Origin: Burkholderiales bacterium
GTDB lineage: Bacteria > Pseudomonadota > Gammaproteobacteria > Burkholderiales > Burkholderiaceae_E
Assembly (NCBI GenBank): GCA_026399835.1
Contig: JAPLQE010000082.1
Coordinates: 1 to 57,678, forward strand
Length of the DNA stretch: 57,678 nt
Direction of reading: 5' to 3'
This document shows positions 36,784-46,951 of this stretch, one piece after another; the first letter of the stretch is position 1, and each line of letters begins with the position of its first letter. A program made the position numbers and the translations under genes. Under the pieces are notes generated by a model. It was given only the letters and a program-made list of their open reading frames with translations, was not told the DNA's origin and searched no databases.

Positions 36784-38979
36784 ATGAACACCGAAACCCA
36801 CCGCCAGCTTGCCAATGACATCTGGAGCATCTGCAACCTGCTACGCGGGCCGTACAAGCGCAATGAGTACCGCAAGGTCATCCTGCCGCTGACGGTGCTG
36901 CGCAGGTTCGATTACTTGTTAGCGCCCACCAAGGCCAAGGCGCTGGAGACCTTTAACCAGTACAAGGGTAAGCCCGAAAGCATCATCCGCAGCGTGATGC
37001 AGGCGGCCACCGGCTACCCGTTCTACAACCTGTCCAAGCTGGAACTGCGTCCGTCTCAGAAAGGCATCAACTCGCTGCTGGACGACCCCAGCAACCTCGC
37101 CCCCAACCTCAACAGCTACATCAACGGTTTCTCGCCCAACGTGCGGGCCATCATGGAGCGCTTTGCCTTCGATCAGCAGATCGCCAAGATGGCCGAGAAG
37201 AACCTGCTGTTCAAGGTCGTCCAGAAGTTTGCCTCCTTCGATCTGAGCTTCTCGCACCTCAAGCCCGACCAGGCTGCGATGCAAATGGGCTACGTGTTCG
37301 AGGAACTGATCCGGATCGGCGCCGAGCAGTCGAACGAAGAGGCTGGCGAGCATTTCACCCCGCGCGAGGTAATCAAGCTGATGGTGAACCTGCTGCTGTC
37401 GCCCGAACAGGATCTGCGCCGCAGCCACGTCGTCAAGACCATCTACGACCCGGCCTGTGGTACCGGCGGCATGCTGTCGGTGGCTGAGAAGTACATCCGC
37501 GACTTGAACAACGAAGCCAACCCCCTGCTGTACGGGCAGGACTGGAACGACGAGGCCTGGGCAGTCTGCCGCTCGGACATGCTCATCAAGGGCGAGGACG
37601 CAGACAACATAGCGCTGGGCGACACCTTCACCAAGGATGCTCACGCTCGCGACGAACAAGACCAGAAGCGCCGCTTCGACTACATGCTGGCCAACCCCCC
37701 ATTCGGTGTGGAGTGGAAGCAGCAGCAGCGCTACATCGAGCTCGAACGCGGCACCCAGGGCTACAACGGTCGATTCGGCGCTGGCACGCCGCGCATCAAC
37801 GATGGGGCCTTGCTGTTCCTGCAGCACATGCTTGACAAGATGCGTTCGGCCTCAGACGGCGGGAGCCGCATCGGCATCGTCTTCAATGGCTCGCCGCTGT
37901 TCACCGGGGATGCTGGCGGCGGCGAATCGGAGATCCGCCGCTGGATCATCGAGAACGATTGGCTCGAGGCCATCGTCGCGCTCCCCGAGCAACTTTTCTA
38001 CAACACCGGCATCAGCACCTACATCTGGGTGCTGACCAACCGCAAGGAGCCGCATCGCAAAGGCAAGGTGCAACTCATCGACGCCCGTAATCACTGGGTG
38101 CCGATGGAAAAGAGCCTGGGCAACAAGCGCCGCCGCATCGGCGATCCGTCCGACAGGCCCAAAGACCCGGACCATATCGGCGACATCACTGGCCTGCACG
38201 GCCAGCAGGCCGATGGCGCTACGCGGTGGGTGCTGTTCGACAAGGATGGCAAGGTGGCTGACCTGCGCACCACGGCCCCCGCCTCACCCGCGTCAGAGGG
38301 CCAGACTTGGAAGGAACTGATTGTCAGCAAGGAGTTCGACAACGAAGACTTCGGCTACCACAAGATCACCGTCGAGCGCCCTCTTCGCCTGAGCTTCCAC
38401 GCCAAGGCGGAGCGGCTCGCTCGCCTGGAGGACGAGACCGCGTTCAAGAACTTGGCCACCAGCGCGAAAAAGGACGAAGCCGCTCGATTGAAGGACATCG
38501 AGGCCGGCGAGGCTCGACAACAGCAGATCCGCGATCTGCTGGCTCAGTTCGGCGAGCGGCACCCCGATCAGATCAACGACCGCAAGTTCTTCCTGGAGCG
38601 ACTCAAGCCCATCGACCGAGAGCTGGGAGTCCGTCTCGCTGCGCCGGAACTGAAGGCCGTGGTCAATGCCCTTGGCGAACGTGACGAGAACGCCGAGATC
38701 TGCCGCAGCCGCGACGGCGAGGCCGAGCCCGACACCGATCTGCGTGACACCGAGAATGTGCCGCTCAAGGAGAGCATCCAGGCGTACTTCGAGCGCGAGG
38801 TGCTGCCGCACGTGCCCGATGCCTGGATCGACCACAGCAAGACCAGAGTGGGCTACGAGATCCCGCTCAACCGCCACTTCTACCGCTACGAACCGCCGCG
38901 CGAGCTGGCGGTGATCGAGGGCGAGATCAAGGCGCTCGAGGCCGTCATCGTGCGCCTGCTGGGCGAGGTGACGGCATGA
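36784..38979 (+). CDS. hsdM: Type I restriction-modification DNA methyltransferase subunit HsdM
   Basis: 731 residues. An N-terminal helical HsdM domain (residues ~1-140) precedes the N6-adenine methyltransferase core: SAM-binding DPACGTGGML near 222 and catalytic NPPFG near 303. The C-terminus is longer than in EcoKI-type HsdM and includes a charged, possibly coiled-coil stretch (~540-640). It methylates the host recognition site together with HsdS. It is separated from hsdS by the abi gene and two unknown genes, an unusual spread. Confidence 0.93.
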   Translation: MNTETHRQLANDIWSICNLLRGPYKRNEYRKVILPLTVLRRFDYLLAPTKAKALETFNQYKGKPESIIRSVMQAATGYPFYNLSKLELRPSQKGINSLLDDPSNLAPNLNSYINGFSPNVRAIMERFAFDQQIAKMAEKNLLFKVVQKFASFDLSFSHLKPDQAAMQMGYVFEELIRIGAEQSNEEAGEHFTPREVIKLMVNLLLSPEQDLRRSHVVKTIYDPACGTGGMLSVAEKYIRDLNNEANPLLYGQDWNDEAWAVCRSDMLIKGEDADNIALGDTFTKDAHARDEQDQKRRFDYMLANPPFGVEWKQQQRYIELERGTQGYNGRFGAGTPRINDGALLFLQHMLDKMRSASDGGSRIGIVFNGSPLFTGDAGGGESEIRRWIIENDWLEAIVALPEQLFYNTGISTYIWVLTNRKEPHRKGKVQLIDARNHWVPMEKSLGNKRRRIGDPSDRPKDPDHIGDITGLHGQQADGATRWVLFDKDGKVADLRTTAPASPASEGQTWKELIVSKEFDNEDFGYHKITVERPLRLSFHAKAERLARLEDETAFKNLATSAKKDEAARLKDIEAGEARQQQIRDLLAQFGERHPDQINDRKFFLERLKPIDRELGVRLAAPELKAVVNALGERDENAEICRSRDGEAEPDTDLRDTENVPLKESIQAYFEREVLPHVPDAWIDHSKTRVGYEIPLNRHFYRYEPPRELAVIEGEIKALEAVIVRLLGEVTA

Positions 38980-39031
38980 ACTCGTGCACGCACAGCATCA
39001 ACGGGGCTGGCACGGGCGCCGGGCTCGGCGC

Positions 39032-39061
39032 TTGGCACCGAACTGGCTTTGTGCGTATACT
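39032..39061 (+). promoter_or_regulatory. Strong sigma-70-type promoter for the structured RNA
   Basis: -35 TTGGCA (39032-39037) and -10 TATACT (39056-39061) with an 18-base spacer. Both boxes differ from consensus by one base each, which stands out in this GC-rich genome. Transcription would start at about 39067-39070, at the 5' edge of the RNA candidate. Confidence 0.7.
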
Positions 39062-39067
39062 TCGCCA

Positions 39068-39130
39068 TAACAAAACCCGCCAAGGCTATGCGCGCAAGCG
39101 TATCCTCAAACCGGCGGGTTACTTTTTTGT
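39068..39130 (+). ncRNA. Structured small RNA candidate upstream of Abi_2 gene (abiF-RNA-like)
   Basis: An outer stem AACCCGCC (39074-39081) pairs with GGCGGGTT (39113-39120). Inside is a second hairpin: AGG (39083-39085), a CT bulge, ATGCGC (39088-39093), GNRA tetraloop GCAA, GCGTAT (39098-39103), CCT (39104-39106). A run of six T (39123-39128) follows, as in an intrinsic terminator, and its UUUUGU could also pair with the 5' ACAAAA. A strong promoter lies directly upstream and an Abi_2/AbiF-type gene directly downstream. From memory, a conserved 'abiF' RNA motif is known upstream of Abi_2 genes; a covariance-model match would settle it. A further hairpin (39131-39136 with 39145-39150) precedes the abi start. 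Confidence 0.65.
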
Positions 39131-39172
39131 GCGCCGGGTTTTTGCGGCGCAGGGACTGGCCGGGAGCGCGTC

Positions 39173-40084
39173 GTGGCAACGATGAAGCGCCCCTTCGGCA
39201 AGCCCGCCACCACCCACGCCCAGCAGGTGGCGCTGCTCCAGCAGCGCGGCATGGTTGTCGATGATCCGGCAGCGGCCGAGTTCTACCTGCAACACCTCAA
39301 CTACTACCGGCTCGGCGCCTACTGGCTGCCGTTCGAGGCCGACCACGCCACCCACACCTTCCGCCCCGCCACCCGCTTTGCGGATGTGTTGAACCTCTAC
39401 GTGTTCGACCGGGAACTGCGCCTGCTGGTGCTGGATGCCATCGAGCGCGTGGAAGTCTCGGTGCGCAGCCAGTGGGCCTACCAGATGGCGCACCGGCACG
39501 GGCCGCATGCCCATCTGGATGCCGCCTTGGCCTTCAATAGCTACCACTGGCAGACCAACCTCAACAAGCTTACCGACGAAGTCGATCGGTCCGACGAGGT
39601 TTTCATCAAGCATCTCAAGGCCAGCTACAGCGAGGCGCTGCCGCCAATCTGGGCCGTGTGCGAGGTGATGTCGCTGGGCCTGCTCTCTCGCTGGTATAGC
39701 AACCTCAAGCCCATGCATACCCGCAGCGCCATCGCCGCGGCCTACGGGGTGGACCAGAGGGTTCTCGAATCCTGGCTTCATCACCTCTCACTGGTGCGTA
39801 ACACCTGTGCCCACCACAGCCGGCTGTGGAACCGTGACTTCACCGTCACCCCGAAACTGCCACACAGCAAGCCAGCCGGGCTGGCAGCGCAATGCCAAGC
39901 CGGTTCGCGCAAGCTCTACAACGCGCTGGTCATCCTGCTGCATTGCATGGACGTGATCGCGCCGCAGCACCACTGGCGTGCTCGCCTGAAGGACCTGATC
40001 ACCCGGCATGCGGTTCCAGTGGCGGCGATGGATTTCCCGGTTGGCTGGGAGCAACTCGCGATCTGGCAGGAGAACACACCATGA
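39173..40084 (+). CDS. Abi_2 (AbiD/AbiF) family HEPN protein
   Basis: 303 residues. The N-terminal part [20 protein letters not shown] and [13 protein letters not shown] matches Abi_2 proteins. The helical C-terminal part holds the HEPN RNase motif R-x4-H as RNTCAHH (Arg209, Asn210, His214) followed by RLWNR. HEPN proteins of this family are abortive-infection RNases in which host or phage RNA is cut, and relatives are discussed as ancestors of Cas13. A GTG at 39173 fits the GGGAG at ~39161-39165 better than the ATG at 39182. It follows a structured-RNA candidate and overlaps the next gene by ATGA. Confidence 0.88.
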
Positions 40085-41193
40085 ATCAGGAGTTCCTGCG
40101 TCCACGTCTCGTCGGCCGCCGTTTCGACGAGCACTCCTTGCCGGTGGACATCCTCAAGGACTTCGCCGCGCTGGAGGAGATGCTGGTCGAGGTGGCCAAG
40201 CGCCAGTACCTCGCCGTCAACCCGGACCGGGTGCACTCGCCCAAAGGCTTCACCAAGGGACTGGAGCTGCATCTGACCACGGTCGAGCCAGGCAGCGCCA
40301 TCCCGGTGATCGCGTTGGTGTTCTCGACGCTCTTTCCCTCGGCCGACGCCGACTACTTCGAGCAGGCCAAGGAGCAGATCGTCGAAGCCATCGCCGCCGC
40401 CGACCAGGGTCAACCGCCGGTGCTGCCGCCCGAGCTGCTGCGTTACTTCGATCGCTTCGGGCGCGGCCTGCGCGAAGGCGAGGCCATGGAGTTCATGCGC
40501 CGCACTGGCCAGACTGCGTCGCTCACACCGGCTACCCGCGAGCACCTGCTGCGTGCCTCGCAGGCCGAGCAATGGACCGAGGAAGTCACCCTCAAGGGCC
40601 GTATCCCCGAGATCGACCAGGCCGATCACAGTTTCGAACTCGAGCTGCGCGACGGCACCAAGCTCAAGGCCCCCTTGCTGGAGCTGCACCTCAAGACCGT
40701 GCTTGATGCCGCCGTCAGGTACCGCGACGGCACGTTGGTTGCGATCAAGGGCGTGATCCAGCGCGACCGTGCCGACCGCCGCAAGGGATTCGAATCGGTC
40801 GAGCACATCACTCCGCTGGACCCGCTGGACATCGAATCCCGCCTCGAAGAACTCGCCCAGCTGCTCGAAGGATGGCTGGACGGCAAGGGTCGGGCGCCCG
40901 AACGCGCCGCTTTGTTGCGCTTGGCGCAGGCCTTTGACGAGCACTACGCACCCGATCTGCAGTTGCCCTATCTCTATCCCACCGCCGAGGGTGGCGTGCA
41001 GGCCGAATGGACGCTGGGCGCGTGGGAGGTATCCCTGGAAATCGCGCTGCCAGCGATGGCAGCGCAATACCAAGCGCTGCACCTGAAGACCCGCGAGAGC
41101 TGTGAACTCGACTTGATCCTGACCGCCGATGACGGCAAGGGCTGGACGGCGCTAAACGCCGCGCTCAAGGCAGTGCAAGAGGGCCAGGTGTGA
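40081..41193 (+). CDS. Uncharacterised protein of a restriction-modification-linked gene pair (370 aa)
   Basis: 370 residues, no recognised domain. The N-terminus ([20 protein letters not shown], then [11 protein letters not shown]) looks conserved, a middle beta-rich part reads [19 protein letters not shown], and the C-terminus has [20 protein letters not shown], a pattern seen in regulators or immunity-type proteins but not diagnostic. There is no signal peptide or membrane segment. ATG overlaps the abi stop; its own stop overlaps the next GTG. The frame is open further upstream, but that part lies inside abi. Function unknown; defence-associated by context. Confidence 0.8.
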
Positions 41194-41567
41194 CGCCCGA
41201 CACGCTGCTGCTGCGGCAGATTCACCCGGGCTTTGTACAGAACGGCCGCGTCACTTCCCAGGCCTTTCGCCACACGCCCAAGGACGAGTTCCAACTCTCG
41301 GTGGACAACGGCGCACGCGTGACCGCGGAAGCCGCATGGCGTCGTTTCACGGCCGACCCGGCTTGCACGTCAGCAGGCGTCCAGGCCATCTCGCGATCTG
41401 ACTGCGCTGCGCAGGTGCTGCCGGTGATCGAGGACGGTAGCTCGCACCCGGAGCACTGCTCAATCGACTTTTCCGCCTTCGAGAAGAAGGCGATTGATAA
41501 GAAGGCCAAGCTGTTGCGGGCTGCAGCGGCAACGCGCGGCTGGTTGTTCACGGAGGCAGCTGCGTGA
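41190..41567 (+). CDS. Uncharacterised small protein of the same pair (125 aa)
   Basis: 125 residues. A conserved-looking opening LRQIHPGFVQNGRVTSQAF with HTPKDEFQLSVDNG is followed by a short hydrophobic middle and a Lys-rich helix FEKKAIDKKAKLLRAAA. No domain recognised. It starts at a GTG overlapping the previous stop, and its stop overlaps the hsdS GTG, so it is coupled on both sides. The constant pairing with the 370-residue protein suggests they act together, but nothing in the sequence gives a mechanism. Confidence 0.78.
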   Translation: MTPDTLLLRQIHPGFVQNGRVTSQAFRHTPKDEFQLSVDNGARVTAEAAWRRFTADPACTSAGVQAISRSDCAAQVLPVIEDGSSHPEHCSIDFSAFEKKAIDKKAKLLRAAAATRGWLFTEAAA

Positions 41568-42910
41568 AGCACCCAACCTATGACGCGTATCGGCCAAGTC
41601 CCTTCTCTTGGATGGATCGCGTTCCAAAGCACTGGGATTCGGCGGCGCTGCGCTGGGTTTCCAAGCGCTACGCGGGCGGGACACCCGACAAGGGCAATGA
41701 CGCGTATTGGGAAGACGGCACGATCCCGTGGCTGAACTCGGGCGCCGTTAACGACGGCTACATCACGGCGCCTTCTGAACTGATCACACCAGAAGGCCTT
41801 GCCAACAGCAGCGCCAAGTGGATTCCCAAGGGCGCACTGGTTATGGCCCTGGCCGGCCAGGGAAAGACCAAGGGCATGGTCGCGCAACTTGGGATTGCGA
41901 CAACTTGCAATCAGTCGATGGCTGCGATCATTCCAGCGCGGCGACTCGATTCACGCTATCTGTACTGGTGGTTGACGGCGAACTACCAGAACATCCGGAA
42001 CCTTGCGGGGGGCGAAGCTCGCGATGGGCTGAACCTGGACCTGCTGGGCTCGATCCCTTGCCCAATACCGCCACTTGCGGAGCAGCAAGCCATTGTCCGC
42101 TTCGTCGATGCGAAGAGCGCGCAGATCGACGTTCTGGTGGCGCAAAAGCGGCTACTCATCGACAAGCTGAAGGAGAAGCGGCAGGCGCTGATCGCCCGCA
42201 CTGTGACCCGCGGTCTGCCGCCGGAGGAGGCACGCCGTAGTGGACTCGACCCGCATCCGAGGCTGCGGCCGTTAGCGGAGGCCTGGGTCGATGCCATCCC
42301 GACCCACTGGGACGTTTGGAAGATTACACACGGCTTCGAGACTATCGGCAGCGGGACCACTCCACCGAGCGACAACGAAGACTGGTATGACGGTGATGTT
42401 CCCTGGGTGACGACGGGCGAGCTGAGAGAGTCGAGAATCACCAGCACGGCCAAAAGGGTCAGTGACGCCGCGATTCGAGAGTTCAGCGCGCTCAAGGTGT
42501 TTCCTCAAGACTCGATTCTGATAGCGATGTACGGCGCGACGATTGGGAGACTTGGCATACTGGGGATCTCAGCAACAACCAATCAGGCGTGCTGCGCTCT
42601 GGCGAACGGTATCGCGTTCGACGTGGGCTTCCTCTTCTTCTGGTTTCAAGCCTTCCGTGAGCAACTCGTAATGTTGGCAACGGGTGGGGGACAAACAAAC
42701 ATTAGCCAAGAGAAGATCCGATCGCTTCGGATTCCCTGTCCGGATCTGCCGGAGCAAGAGCTAATCTGCGGATACTTGAGCCGCGAGACGGGCCGACTGG
42801 ATCACCTTGTTGAAGTTGCTGAGGACGCAATCGATCGTCTGCAAAAGTTGCGCCTTTCCATTACAAATTCGGCAGTTATCGGCAAGATCGATGTGCGAGA
42901 CTTCAGGTGA
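41564..42910 (+). CDS. hsdS: Type I restriction specificity subunit HsdS
   Basis: 448 residues with two target-recognition domains. TRD1 (~15-170) starts PKHWDSAALRWVSKRYAGGT; a conserved helical spacer IPPLAEQQAIVRFVDAKSAQ follows; TRD2 (~245-400) starts IPTHWDVWKITHGFETIGSGT; a second helix PEQELICGYLSRETGRLDHL closes it. Each TRD reads one half of a bipartite site; the sequence cannot be predicted by eye. GTG start overlaps the preceding stop and its stop overlaps the FRG gene. Confidence 0.92.
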   Translation: MKHPTYDAYRPSPFSWMDRVPKHWDSAALRWVSKRYAGGTPDKGNDAYWEDGTIPWLNSGAVNDGYITAPSELITPEGLANSSAKWIPKGALVMALAGQGKTKGMVAQLGIATTCNQSMAAIIPARRLDSRYLYWWLTANYQNIRNLAGGEARDGLNLDLLGSIPCPIPPLAEQQAIVRFVDAKSAQIDVLVAQKRLLIDKLKEKRQALIARTVTRGLPPEEARRSGLDPHPRLRPLAEAWVDAIPTHWDVWKITHGFETIGSGTTPPSDNEDWYDGDVPWVTTGELRESRITSTAKRVSDAAIREFSALKVFPQDSILIAMYGATIGRLGILGISATTNQACCALANGIAFDVGFLFFWFQAFREQLVMLATGGGQTNISQEKIRSLRIPCPDLPEQELICGYLSRETGRLDHLVEVAEDAIDRLQKLRLSITNSAVIGKIDVRDFR

Positions 42911-43812
42911 GCACGCCGTTCGAGATCGAGAGCTTCGACGAGTACCTCAACACCATCCACAAGGAGTTGGGCAACCACGTCGGGAGTAGACGGCGCCTTT
43001 ACTTTCGCGGGCAGAGCAAGCGCGCCAGCGAGGGCTACCCGCTGACGCCGTCCGTGGCACGCTACAAGCATCTGGGCAGCCTCTCCCTGGTCGAGCGAGA
43101 GCAGAAGGAATGCGAGGTGCTGGAGACCTTCAGCAACCATCTGCTCACCTACGTGCAACACCGGCCGCAGACGGCCTGGGAAGAACTGGCCATCGCGCAG
43201 CACCACGGTTTGCCGACGCGGTTCATGGACTGGACGACCAACCCGCTGGTCGCGCTGTACTTCGCGGTGCGCAACACCAGCGCAGGCACGAATGACAGCG
43301 CGGTTTACGTGCTGATCTCCAACCCCAAGCGCTATGCCGACCTTCGGCGCGGCCAGACGGCGCAAATCAAGCCCGTGGGCGACGCTGCGACGGAAGCGGC
43401 CCAGACGGACTCTCCCGACGCCTACGCCGAGTTCGGCGTCGACGAAGGCGCACCCGAATCGACGGCGGATTTGACTGCTCCGGCCGACGCGGACGGCCGC
43501 GAGTTGAGTGCCGATGTGGGCCCGCTGGAGTTGCCCACGCCGTTCAAAATCAGCGAAAACATCATCTACGACCCACCGCATGTATCGCCGCGCATTCGCG
43601 CGCAGGACGGCGTGCTCCTGGCCTGCTGGCAGCCGATGCAACCGCTGGACGAGAAGGACTACCTCGAAATCGTCATCAAGCAGGCCGCGCATGAAGAGAT
43701 CCGTCGCCGGCTGGACCAGTACGGCGTCTTTGACAAGCAGCTGTTTCCTGACCTCGACGGCATCGCCAAGTGGCTGAAGTACCGCGCCTACGAGATCAAC
43801 GGCACGATCTGA
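42907..43812 (+). CDS. FRG-domain protein
   Basis: 301 residues. RLYFRGQSKRASEGYPLTPS near residue 33 is the FRG (Phe-Arg-Gly) motif, and AQHHGLPTRFMDWTTNPLVA near 102 is the second conserved block. FRG proteins are frequent in defence loci and type I restriction-modification operons, but their activity is not established. The central stretch (~150-205) is acidic and low-complexity. GTG overlaps the hsdS stop, and hsdR follows after 13 bases. Confidence 0.85.
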   Translation: MSTPFEIESFDEYLNTIHKELGNHVGSRRRLYFRGQSKRASEGYPLTPSVARYKHLGSLSLVEREQKECEVLETFSNHLLTYVQHRPQTAWEELAIAQHHGLPTRFMDWTTNPLVALYFAVRNTSAGTNDSAVYVLISNPKRYADLRRGQTAQIKPVGDAATEAAQTDSPDAYAEFGVDEGAPESTADLTAPADADGRELSADVGPLELPTPFKISENIIYDPPHVSPRIRAQDGVLLACWQPMQPLDEKDYLEIVIKQAAHEEIRRRLDQYGVFDKQLFPDLDGIAKWLKYRAYEINGTI

Positions 43813-43825
43813 GGAACCCAAGCCC

Positions 43826-46800
43826 ATGCCAGGCCAAACCACCGAACGCGCCTTCGAGTTCCACGTCGAGGACTTGCTGCTGCAGCAAGGCGGCTGGTTG
43901 CCCGGCACCAATGCCGAGTGGGACAAGGCGCGGGCGCTGTTCCCGGCACGGGTGTCCGCCTTCATCGAGGCGACGCAGCCCAGACTGTGGGCCGAGATGG
44001 CGGCGCTTCACGGCAGCAACCTTCAGCCGATGTTGCTGGATGCTCTGGTCAAGGAGCTGGAGATCAAGGGCAGCCTGAACGTGCTGCGCCACGGCTTCAA
44101 GTTCTACGGCAAGCTGTTCAGGCTGGCGTATTTCAAGCCGGCGCACGCCCTGTCGCCCGATGTGCTGACCCTGTACGGGCAGAACCAACTGACGCTGATT
44201 CGGCAGGTGTCTTGCCACCCCGGCGACCACAGCACGGTGGACATGGTGCTGGCCGTGAACGGGCTGCCGGTGGCCACCATCGAGTTGAAGAATCCCGGCA
44301 CGCATCAGACCTGGCGGCACGCGGTGAAGCAGTACCAGGGCGACCGCGATCCGCGTGCGCCGCTGTTCGACTTCAAGAAGCGTGCGCTGGTGCACTTCGC
44401 CGCCGACCCGGACGAAGTCTGGATGACCACGCGGCTGGCGAAGGAGAAAACCTTCTTCCTGCCTTTCAACCGCGGCAGCCACCCTGGGCAGATTCAATGC
44501 GGGGCCGGCAACCCGCAGCACGGCAGTGGCTACCGCACCGGCTACTTCTGGCAGGAGACGCTGCAGCGCGACAGCTTCCTCGACATCCTGGGCCACTTTC
44601 TGTTCATCGAGAAGGATGAGCAGAAGGTCGACGATGGCCGGGGCAGCAAGAAGCTCGTCACCACCGAGAAGATGGTGTTCCCTCGCTACCACCAGCTGCA
44701 TTCGGTGCGGGCATTGATCGAGGCGGCGCGTGGCGAGGGTGCAGGGCACAACTACCTGATCCAGCACTCGGCGGGCAGCGGCAAGACCAACAGCATCTCG
44801 TGGCTGTCGCACCGGCTGGCCAGCCTGCACAACGCGCAGGACCAGAAAGTGTTCGACTGCGTGATCGTCATCACCGACCGCAAGGTGCTCGACAAGCAGC
44901 TGCAGGACGCGATCTACCAGATCGAGCACGCACAAGGCGTGGTCAAGGCCATCGACCATGACGCCAAGCAGCTGGCCGACGCGCTGATCGACGGCACCAA
45001 GATCGTCATCACCACGCTCCAGAAGTTCCCCTTCGTGCTGCGCGGGCTGTTGCATGCGGCCGGCGCGGAGAACCAGGACAAGGCCAGTGACGAGGAGAAG
45101 GCTCAGGCCAAAGCCTGGCAGGCGGCCATTGCGGCACGCCGCTACGCGGTGATCGTGGACGAGGCTCACTCCAGCCAGACTGGCGAAACGGCCCGCGAGC
45201 TCAAGAGCATCCTGGGTGCCGATGCGCAAAACGGCAACGGCGCGATGGGCGATGAGGCCGAAGCGGACTGGGAAGACCGCTTGAACCAGATCATGGCCTC
45301 GCGGGGTCAGCAGAAGAACCTGAGCTTCTTTGCCTTCACTGCCACGCCCAAGGGCAAGACGCTGGAACTGTTCGGCCGGCCTAGCGCCAGTGGCAAACCA
45401 GAGGCCTTCCACACCTATTCGATGCGCCAGGCCATCGAGGAAGGTTTCATCCTCGACGTGCTGCGCAGCTACACCACCTACAGCACCTGGTTCAAGTTCG
45501 TGAAGACGGTGGAGGACGACCCCACCATCCCGAAGAAGAAGGGAGCCAAGGCGCTCGCGAAGTTCAAGGAGCTGCACCCGCACAACATCGAACAGAAGAC
45601 GGAAGTGATGGTCGAGCACTTCCGCGAGCATGTCCGGCACCAACTGGGTGGCCGCGGCAAGGCGATGGTGGTGACGGCCAGCCGTATCCAGGCGGTGCGC
45701 TACAAGCTGGCGTTCGAACGCTACATCCAGGAGCAGGGATACACCGACATTCGCTCCCTGGTGGCCTTCAGCGGCACGGTCAAGGACCCGGACACCGGCG
45801 TCGAGTACACGGAGCCCGGCATGAATCCGGATGCCGTGACAGGCAAGCCCATTCCCGAAAGCCAGCTGCCCGAGCGGTTCGGCTCCAGTGACTATCAGGT
45901 GCTGCTCGTGGCGAACAAGTACCAGACGGGCTTCGACCAGCCGCTGCTTTGCGCGATGTACGTGGACAAGCGGCTGGACGGCGTTCAAGCGGTGCAGACC
46001 CTGTCGCGCCTGAACCGCAAGATCGCCGGCAAGGACGAACCCTTCGTGCTGGACTTCGTCAACAAGCCCGAGGAGGTCTACGCAGCGTTCAAGCCGTACT
46101 TCGACTCCACCAGCCTGCAGGAGTCAGCGAAGCCGGAGATGCTGCCCGCGATTAAGCACGAGCTGGATCAATTGCAGGTTTACCACTGGAGCGAAGTCGA
46201 AGCATTCGCCCGCATCTTCTATCGCCAGCCGGAGAGGCAGAACCCTGCCGATCACGCCCACATGCAGCGTCACCTGCAGCCGGCCGTGGATCGCTTCAAG
46301 GCCATCGAGGACGAATCGGTGCGGTCGGCCTTCCGCGACAAGCTGGGCGGGTACGTTCGGATGTACTCGTTTCTGAGCCAGATCCTGCCGTATGCCGATC
46401 CCGACCTGGAAATGCTCTACAGCTATGGGCGCTTCCTGCTGCCACATCTGCCGCTGGATCGTGACAACACGGTGGTCAAGATCGGCAACGAAGTGGAGCT
46501 GCAGTATTACCGCTTGCAGCGAGTGACCAGTGGATCGATTGAACTGAAGGTCGGTGAGCCCGAGGGCGTCTACAGCCCGACGGACGTCGGTACCGGGAAG
46601 CCCAAGGAAGAAAAGGCGCCGCTGTCCGAAATCATCCAGGTGCTGAACGAGCGCTTCGGCACCACGTTCACGGAGGAGGACCGGCTGTTCTTTGATCAGA
46701 TCAAGGCAAGAGCAGCGGCCAACAGCCAGGTAATCCAGACCGCCATGGCCAACCCGCTGGACAAGTTCCAGCTCGGGGTGCGCAAGCTGATCGAGGACTT

Positions 46801-46951
46801 GATGATTCAGCGGATGGCAGAGAACGACAAGATCGTGACCCGCTACATGGAAGACAGTGACTTCCAACGTACTGCGTTCCCCATACTTGCGAAGGAGATC
46901 TTCGACGCGGTTCACGCCCAGCAGTGCCCCGCAGGTGGCAGCATGCCCTGA
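43826..46951 (+). CDS. hsdR: Type I restriction endonuclease subunit HsdR
   Basis: 1041 residues. The N-terminal PD-(D/E)xK nuclease has VATIELKNPGT near 151-161 with the catalytic Glu-x-Lys. The SF2 translocase shows Walker A SAGSGKTNS near 315, VDEAHSSQ near 445 and FFAFTATPKG as motif III. The later part contains LVANKYQTGFDQP and LSRLNRKIAGK, motifs V-VI of type I HsdR. It translocates DNA and cuts when unmethylated sites are met. The gene is complete and appears functional. Confidence 0.94.
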   Translation: MPGQTTERAFEFHVEDLLLQQGGWLPGTNAEWDKARALFPARVSAFIEATQPRLWAEMAALHGSNLQPMLLDALVKELEIKGSLNVLRHGFKFYGKLFRLAYFKPAHALSPDVLTLYGQNQLTLIRQVSCHPGDHSTVDMVLAVNGLPVATIELKNPGTHQTWRHAVKQYQGDRDPRAPLFDFKKRALVHFAADPDEVWMTTRLAKEKTFFLPFNRGSHPGQIQCGAGNPQHGSGYRTGYFWQETLQRDSFLDILGHFLFIEKDEQKVDDGRGSKKLVTTEKMVFPRYHQLHSVRALIEAARGEGAGHNYLIQHSAGSGKTNSISWLSHRLASLHNAQDQKVFDCVIVITDRKVLDKQLQDAIYQIEHAQGVVKAIDHDAKQLADALIDGTKIVITTLQKFPFVLRGLLHAAGAENQDKASDEEKAQAKAWQAAIAARRYAVIVDEAHSSQTGETARELKSILGADAQNGNGAMGDEAEADWEDRLNQIMASRGQQKNLSFFAFTATPKGKTLELFGRPSASGKPEAFHTYSMRQAIEEGFILDVLRSYTTYSTWFKFVKTVEDDPTIPKKKGAKALAKFKELHPHNIEQKTEVMVEHFREHVRHQLGGRGKAMVVTASRIQAVRYKLAFERYIQEQGYTDIRSLVAFSGTVKDPDTGVEYTEPGMNPDAVTGKPIPESQLPERFGSSDYQVLLVANKYQTGFDQPLLCAMYVDKRLDGVQAVQTLSRLNRKIAGKDEPFVLDFVNKPEEVYAAFKPYFDSTSLQESAKPEMLPAIKHELDQLQVYHWSEVEAFARIFYRQPERQNPADHAHMQRHLQPAVDRFKAIEDESVRSAFRDKLGGYVRMYSFLSQILPYADPDLEMLYSYGRFLLPHLPLDRDNTVVKIGNEVELQYYRLQRVTSGSIELKVGEPEGVYSPTDVGTGKPKEEKAPLSEIIQVLNERFGTTFTEEDRLFFDQIKARAAANSQVIQTAMANPLDKFQLGVRKLIEDLMIQRMAENDKIVTRYMEDSDFQRTAFPILAKEIFDAVHAQQCPAGGSMP

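Follow-up and report, generated by a model that had tools for sequence, protein, structure and literature searches.

A predicted RNA antitoxin of the abiF type before an AbiF toxin gene in a type I restriction operon, and RNAs of the same type in phages

Introduction

An Abi_2 gene lies among type I restriction-modification genes in the window (the whole 57,678-nucleotide stretch of Burkholderiales DNA analysed here), and the gap between it and hsdM, which ends at 38979, holds a compact structured RNA, just where the original prediction had placed it. We examined what this RNA is and whether it belongs to the toxin gene behind it or to the restriction operon around it. As a whole, the evidence is best explained by a toxin-antitoxin cassette in which AbiF (Abi_2, a HEPN ribonuclease) is the toxin and the RNA at 39069–39128 the antitoxin, a reading that we consider very probable. 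The proposal of AbiF-RNA pairs as toxin-antitoxins and their link to Cas13, both named in the original prediction, are in print in the published passages concerned.

Results

Promoter and predicted fold

The features of the locus are collected in Table 1. The RNA had been predicted to have its own promoter, TTGGCA-18-TATACT, and a scan of 38900–39300 found this (TTGGCA at 39032–39037 and TATACT at 39056–39061, with 18 nt between them) to be the sole sigma-70-like site, shuffled sequences giving a mean of 0.0 (sd 0.2). At the corresponding place, 52 of 71 loci (the 70 relatives described below, and the window counted) agree with the −10 box in five or more of its six bases, versus 1.8% of 1,399 upstream control positions; the scan and this conservation confirm the observed promoter sequence. 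The −10 box ends 7 nt ahead of 39069, which agrees with the earlier predicted start near 39068.

Folded alone, 39069–39128 gave a minimum free energy of −22.7 kcal/mol (z = −3.47), with 1 of 200 shuffles equally good; the longer stretch 39032–39180 gave no significance (z = −0.28), and the fold signal is therefore local. The 8-bp outer stem, the GCAA-capped inner stem and the T-run that had been read from the sequence are all present. The predicted fold consists of the outer stem, a 3-bp AGG/CCU stem (39083–39085/39104–39106) and a 6-bp hairpin with the GCAA loop at 39094–39097, the loop being swapped for UUCG-like loops in some relatives. No terminator was called at the locus by a terminator scan whose rule requires a loop of 3–8 nt; the outer stem of the window encloses 31 nt.

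Table 1. Coordinates of the features at the locus, numbered from the first letter of the window.
Feature	Position	Strand	Evidence
Sigma-70-like promoter TTGGCA-18-TATACT	39032..39061	+	promoter scan; −10 position kept among relatives
abiF-type RNA, predicted antitoxin, long-apical-hairpin form	39069..39128	+	RF03085 29.2 bits, fold z, 70/70 relatives, covariation
Outer stem, 5' arm	39074..39081	+	pairs with 39113–39120
Inner stem AGG/CCU and 6-bp hairpin, GCAA loop	39083..39106	+	fold; two-sided changes in 5/9 pairs
Unpaired 3' bulge CAAACC	39107..39112	+	39107–39110 invariant in 36/36 long-form RNAs
Outer stem, 3' arm	39113..39120	+	pairs with 39074–39081; covariation analysis
T-run, probable 3' end or attenuator of short RNA	39123..39128	+	sequence
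Exchangeable cassette: promoter, RNA and abiF	39023..40086	+	91% over 1,064 bp match to L002
abiF/Abi_2 HEPN ribonuclease toxin gene	39182..40084	+	PF07751 E 3.6e-59; PADLOC AbiD 1.7e-73
HEPN catalytic motif RNTCAHH (R-x4-6-H type)	39797..39817	+	sequence
hsdM	36784..38979	+	N6_Mtase, HsdM_N
PADLOC candidate PDC-M32A	40081..41193	+	E 6e-142; ATG overlaps abiF stop
PADLOC candidate PDC-M32B	41190..41567	+	E 1.8e-46
hsdS	41564..42910	+	Methylase_S
FRG-domain protein (PADLOC PDC-S15)	42907..43812	+	domain and PADLOC matches
hsdR	43826..46951	+	HSDR_N, SWI2_SNF2

Identity of the RNA

The Rfam scan at gathering level gave no match in the window. A permissive scan gave RF03085 (abiF) as the best match, aligned end to end (1–37) at 29.2 bits (E 0.0014, for a 231-base stretch); this lies under the gathering score of 37, and so the default scan was empty. 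The Rfam check proposed with the original prediction thus returned the expected family over its full length at a score short of the family's gathering level. The low score is explained by the inner insert, which in the alignment shown measures 20 nt in the window RNA instead of 13 nt in RF03085 (a longer apical hairpin); the outer stem, the AGG/CCU-type inner stem and the conserved unpaired bases, including the CUCAAA bulge, are common to both and all in register. Among seven relatives examined, the RNA at the same position scored above gathering in three (L044, 51.7 bits; L063, 43.6; L047, 41.0) and about 29 bits in two of long form, and two were without a match; five close relatives gave no Rfam match at gathering level. 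By sequence, what precedes the AbiF (Abi_2) HEPN-toxin gene is an RNA of the abiF type. The suggestion that it may be an undescribed member holds for its form, in that the window RNA and the scored long-hairpin relatives fall below the Rfam threshold, but not for the system, which is known. A search of the genome that contains the window, at E <= 10, gave no second copy of the RNA.

Relatives and covariation

Seventy relative loci were obtained by a protein search of genome contigs that made no use of the RNA, and the RNA motif was present at all 70; the count is for that reason not circular. At 67 loci the motif was located by one regular expression (68 single hits including the window), and L009, L064 and L065 were placed individually, the motif of L009 lying between two pieces of the protein match. 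The loci are related: the 70 RNAs compared, from 69 loci and the window, comprise 59 different sequences.

Covariation in homologues, on which the prediction had been staked beforehand, was found in both alignments made. Alignment A1 (36 distinct long-form RNAs) had 94.3% of its cells paired, six pairs with two-sided changes and a covariation score of 0.161 versus 0.067 when shuffled, with 0 of 500 shuffles as high. Alignment A2 (34 mixed-form RNAs) scored 0.297 versus 0.084, again with 0 of 500 as high; its four pairs with two-sided changes were reached by 55 of the 500 shuffles, the other measures being above all 500. The outermost pair, 39074–39120, was kept in 24 and failed in 12 of the 36 long-form RNAs, and pair 39088–39103 failed in 15 of the 36; given these failures, the dependable outer stem is 7 bp.

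These results bear upon whether an ordinary terminator or leader hairpin could resemble an abiF RNA by chance, as the sub-threshold Rfam score might suggest; moreover, the RNA model R2 (see below) also matches what look like plain terminators (L235 and L236). Such a chance likeness would have to be squared with the motif's presence in every relative, with the covariation and with the fixed distance to the promoter, and also with the order-reversed controls for two of the four patterns scanned against IMG/VR, which gave 0 viral hits each versus 39 and 29 for the real patterns. We regard it as exceedingly improbable; the covariation rejects it.

A second alternative is that the RNA acts only in cis, as an attenuator or leader of abiF that binds no protein. 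It would suit a stem and T-run standing close upstream of the gene, and in the published passages on the Clostridioides difficile relative (described below) most transcripts are of the short form. The four bulge bases invariant in all 36 long-form RNAs argue against it, as do the retention of the RNA form at loci with an interrupted T-run (such as TTCCTCATTT in L007), the reported activity of the C. difficile RNA in trans and the phage records that hold such RNAs without Abi_2. We consider this alternative very unlikely, and reject a cis-only leader as the sole function upon the published trans activity of the relative and the phage orphans.

The toxin gene and its known counterparts

The partner of the predicted antitoxin, the abiF frame downstream of the RNA, opens at GTG 39173, with ATG 39182 (53 nt after the end of the T-run) giving MKRPFGKP. 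It scored 200.6 bits with the Abi_2 profile versus a curated cut-off of 25.6. The HEPN catalytic motif is intact; of the 65 relatives whose frame was usable, 61 had a motif of this kind (five short frames were set aside). Against the PDB, window AbiF had one match, 8vz6, “Abi family protein” (phmmer E 7.9e-59, residues 5–299), described in a passage of PMC12737573 as an AbiF structure together with its RNA. This is PbAbiF, from a Prevotellaceae bacterium, cited as a homodimer with two RNA copies (Zilberzwige-Tal et al. 2025, via passages of PMC12737573 and PMC12373285). PbAbiF-AbiFr and the window pair are alike in having an AbiF protein with an associated RNA, the likeness being drawn by protein.

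The C. difficile pair AbiF_Cd-RCd22, in the parts of PMC12373285 consulted, resembles the window in its Abi_2 toxin, its upstream abiF-motif RNA with its own promoter, and an RNA 3' end before the gene. There the RNA mostly ends before the gene, the short form making up most transcripts; it binds AbiF, which it neutralises when supplied either in cis or in trans. The authors describe the anti-phage activity of the system as challenging to demonstrate. RCd22 lies in a prophage lysis module and carries two abiF motifs as well as a separate terminator hairpin, whereas the window RNA has a single motif with a longer apical hairpin and is enclosed by a type I R-M operon. In plasmid pAQ3 of Picosynechococcus PCC 7002 (L088, 2001–2242) two apparently tandem abiF-like hairpins, the second recognised by eye, precede the Abi gene; they adjoin type I hsdR and recall the two-motif C. 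difficile RNA.

By analogy with these systems, we infer the transcript ends, RNA binding, neutralisation and ribonuclease activity of the window pair. Transcription from the RNA's own promoter would stop mostly at the T-run and give a short, stable RNA, abiF mRNA would come from occasional read-through, and the folded RNA would bind the AbiF dimer and block its ribonuclease site. That infection is the trigger is our conjecture: host transcription or RNA stability would collapse upon phage infection, the antitoxin would be lost, and AbiF would then cut RNA and the cell would be halted.

Cassette and restriction operon

We compared the window with relatives in which the cassette and the operon are separated, for which the locus offers a natural experiment: the operon is kept and the cassette exchanged in L038, and the cassette is kept and the operon absent in L002. 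L002 (Hydrogenophaga, 20.9 kb) encodes an AbiF 95% identical to that of the window, and its only long match to the window runs from promoter to stop codon (39023–40086), four other matches of 54–100 bp falling elsewhere in the window; no hsd gene was found by tblastn in its 20.9 kb. L038 has kept the operon (HsdM 88%, HsdR 93%) but has an AbiF only 57–58% identical and the short RNA form. Among loci with an upstream hsdM (n = 24 including the window), RNA distance correlated with AbiF distance at r 0.79, still 0.76 after HsdM was partialled out, and its partial correlation with HsdM once AbiF was removed was −0.02. From these cassette swaps and partial correlations the RNA travels with the toxin and not with the restriction operon, indicating, as far as sequence comparison goes, that RNA and toxin are inherited as one unit independently of the restriction genes. 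PDC-M32A/M32B (40081–41567) and PDC-S15 (42907–43812) were shared only with L038 among the 70 relatives (tblastn).

This instance lies inside a type I restriction-modification locus, as originally described; the cassette stands between hsdM and hsdS. The link itself is not new, since a table in Anantharaman et al. 2013 has Abi2/AbiF/AbiD as ‘Embedded in R-M operons’, and it recurs here: with the window's own Hsd proteins as tblastn queries, a type I gene was directly beside the cassette in 32 of 70 relatives, 19 of the 70 having hsdM before it and hsdS after it, and 38 had no adjacent type I gene. The figure of 32 is a lower bound, because L003, counted as unlinked, has hsdR beside its cassette. 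Housekeeping-type neighbours were seen in five of six unlinked loci scanned (L002, L006, L021, L032 and L057).

A PrrC-like role has been proposed for R-M-linked HEPN proteins in a passage of Anantharaman et al. 2013. Applied here, the restriction enzyme would restrain AbiF, phage anti-restriction would release it as a second line, and the RNA would be a secondary lock; such a coupling to the surrounding type I enzyme is conjecture, and is compatible with the RNA antitoxin. PrrC, of the PrrI type I operon, and the window both have a HEPN ribonuclease gene inside hsd genes; PrrC, as described in part of PMC3710099, is restrained by the R-M enzyme and contains an ABC-ATPase domain, whereas the predicted lock in the window is the RNA. 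The linked relatives, above all those directly between hsdM and hsdS, favour a PrrC-like role, and the 38 without an adjacent type I gene (linkage being undercounted), the housekeeping-type neighbours, the cassette found without the operon in L002 and an RNA variation independent of HsdM oppose it. We judge it unlikely, and its obligate form is rejected by the solo cassettes.

RNA and toxin apart in bacteria

The antitoxin reading ties the RNA to its toxin, and we examined how often each occurs without the other by applying RNA model R2 to an order-level control of 250 genomes drawn from a larger group. R2 matched 30 places in 25 of the genomes, some of the 30 being chance matches; six adjoin Abi_2 and 24 do not, so that orphan RNAs are not confined to viruses. 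The 12 regions opened comprise 13 of the 24 non-Abi_2 places, the other 11 all having E 9e-5 or worse. Besides the two apparent terminators noted above, they included a place beside a truncated abiF (L226), matches near type I genes (L228 and L229, two places), three with integrase/transposase, HNH or phage-family genes nearby (L231, L232 and L234), and four in which no explanatory context was found (L225, L227, L230 and L233). L231, L232 and L234 are all in one genome (G286), two of them having a long G+C-rich apical hairpin.

The same genomes held 16 Abi_2 places with E < 1e-20, six of which had an adjacent R2 match. A closer search gave an RNA at two of the other ten, weakly at one (18.4 bits), and at eight of the 16 no abiF RNA was detectable even then; the RNA is thus constant in the window's branch and not in all Abi_2. 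At G384:C96:3378–4145 the Abi_2 frame behind an abiF RNA contains internal stops, i.e., the RNA stands beside a decaying toxin gene. AbiF with its RNA was found near some phage-host groups, namely Acinetobacter (L048), Rhodococcus and Picosynechococcus, the comparison being at the level of the group.

RNA copies in phages

Four pattern scans of IMG/VR gave 137 distinct records with the RNA, which are not independent, several being near-copies and many fragments. Abi_2 was above the Pfam cut-off in 3 of the 137 (0/43, 0/25, 1/35 and 2/34 in the four batches of records searched for it), two further records had weak partial matches (12.6 bits), and 134 had no Abi_2 above cut-off. The profile search was able to see Abi_2, as 3 of 3 plasmid records given to it (of 9 matched) were positive, and tblastn with the relatives' AbiF proteins on 149 viral loci returned the same three positives. 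Downstream of the RNA, the 134 orphans have at least 500 bases in 126 and at least 1,200 bases in 109, so that in most of them the gene has not merely been cut off.

Among 140 pattern-matched viral loci, the RNA was outside any chosen open frame of at least 100 aa in 112 and overlapped one in 28; a tRNA lay within 300 nt in 22, many of these being near-copies. Portal, terminase or major head genes were recognised among the flanking proteins in five of nine sampled loci, and a sixth had a weak tail/virion match. The constancy of unpaired bases in the phage RNAs proves nothing, because the patterns fix them. At stem positions left free by the pattern, each RNA's own arms paired at 3.8 of 4 positions versus 2.8 when swapped (12 distinct pairs); for the other RNA form tested the values were 3.3 and 2.5, with 5 of 14 pairing at only 2 of 4.

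We examined twelve named phages: Caudoviricetes ctgwJ031; mycobacteriophages Faith1, DyoEdafos and Bromden; Aeromonas phages PZL-Ah8 and PT2; Rhizobium phage Pasto; Salicola phage CGphi29; Synechococcus phages S-SZBM1 and S-CREM1; Roseobacter phage CRP-143; and Acinetobacter phage Acj61. These took in 3 of the 28 Mycobacterium matches listed and 6 of 14 and 2 of 3 in other match lists, some of the rest being second records of opened phages; matches H30 and H31 (43% and 32% query coverage) were left out. All 12 match R2 and none of the 12 has Abi_2. Nine have a copy that reaches the RF03085 gathering score (ctgwJ031, Faith1 and Pasto do not), in DyoEdafos and Bromden by means of a second RNA copy. 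This second copy is between tRNA-Gly and tRNA-Lys, and the same gap in Faith1 holds other sequence. In five of the phages, the three that infect mycobacteria and the two cyanophages, the RNA is beside tRNA genes; the mycobacteriophage outer stem is rewritten (CATTGCC/GGCAATG) with its pairing kept. In the three mycobacteriophages (L085, L086 and L087, respectively) the abiF-type RNA core stands nine nt before tRNA-Pro.

Discussion

The window element is a known AbiF system in a form that Rfam undercalls, and abiF RNA in phages is already on record. We propose, as a new reading, that free-standing phage abiF RNAs may be decoy antitoxins that bind and silence host AbiF in unrelated phage groups; we hold this to be evenly balanced. 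Orphan RNAs were found in Autographiviridae, Straboviridae, cyanophage Kyanoviridae and Lclasvirinae mycobacteriophages, among others; some lie within tRNA arrays, others between virion genes. Against a decoy stands the bacterial control, in which matches were also mostly without adjacent Abi_2 (24 of 30) and half of the strong Abi_2 places were without a detectable RNA. The model for this reading is pseudo-ToxI of phage PhiTE (PMC3475682, in part), likewise a phage RNA imitating an RNA antitoxin; it belongs with ToxIN, another toxin and RNA, and its mimicry is demonstrated, whereas that of the abiF orphans is proposed.

The S-CREM1 paper reports abiF RNA in that phage and gives the number of bacteriophage genomes with it in Rfam as three; the passages concerned draw no link to AbiF neutralisation, although protein antitoxins are treated there as counter-defence. 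A 2025 review, in the part consulted, has the role of abiF RNA in phages as unconfirmed; the literature consulted includes passages of PMC9964418, PMC12197685 and PMC12165695. Within the open-licence literature searched, no paper was found that proposes phage abiF RNAs as anti-AbiF decoys. If the decoy reading is true, the AbiF barrier would be common enough to have selected an RNA counter-defence several times, and the window cassette would be the kind of target that the phage RNAs imitate. Neutralisation of AbiF by these RNAs would amount to a widespread RNA counter-defence, and would explain a phage RNA of unconfirmed role.

Two further observations concern the surroundings of the viral RNAs. 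In Synechococcus phage S-CREM1 (L222, 419–1317) a tRNA array holds the abiF RNA together with wcaG and manA RNAs. In a subset of viral contigs (among L074, L076, L078 and L092–L119) the long-form RNA stands in a recurring GAGAGACTG-like context, some of the copies being inside open frames.
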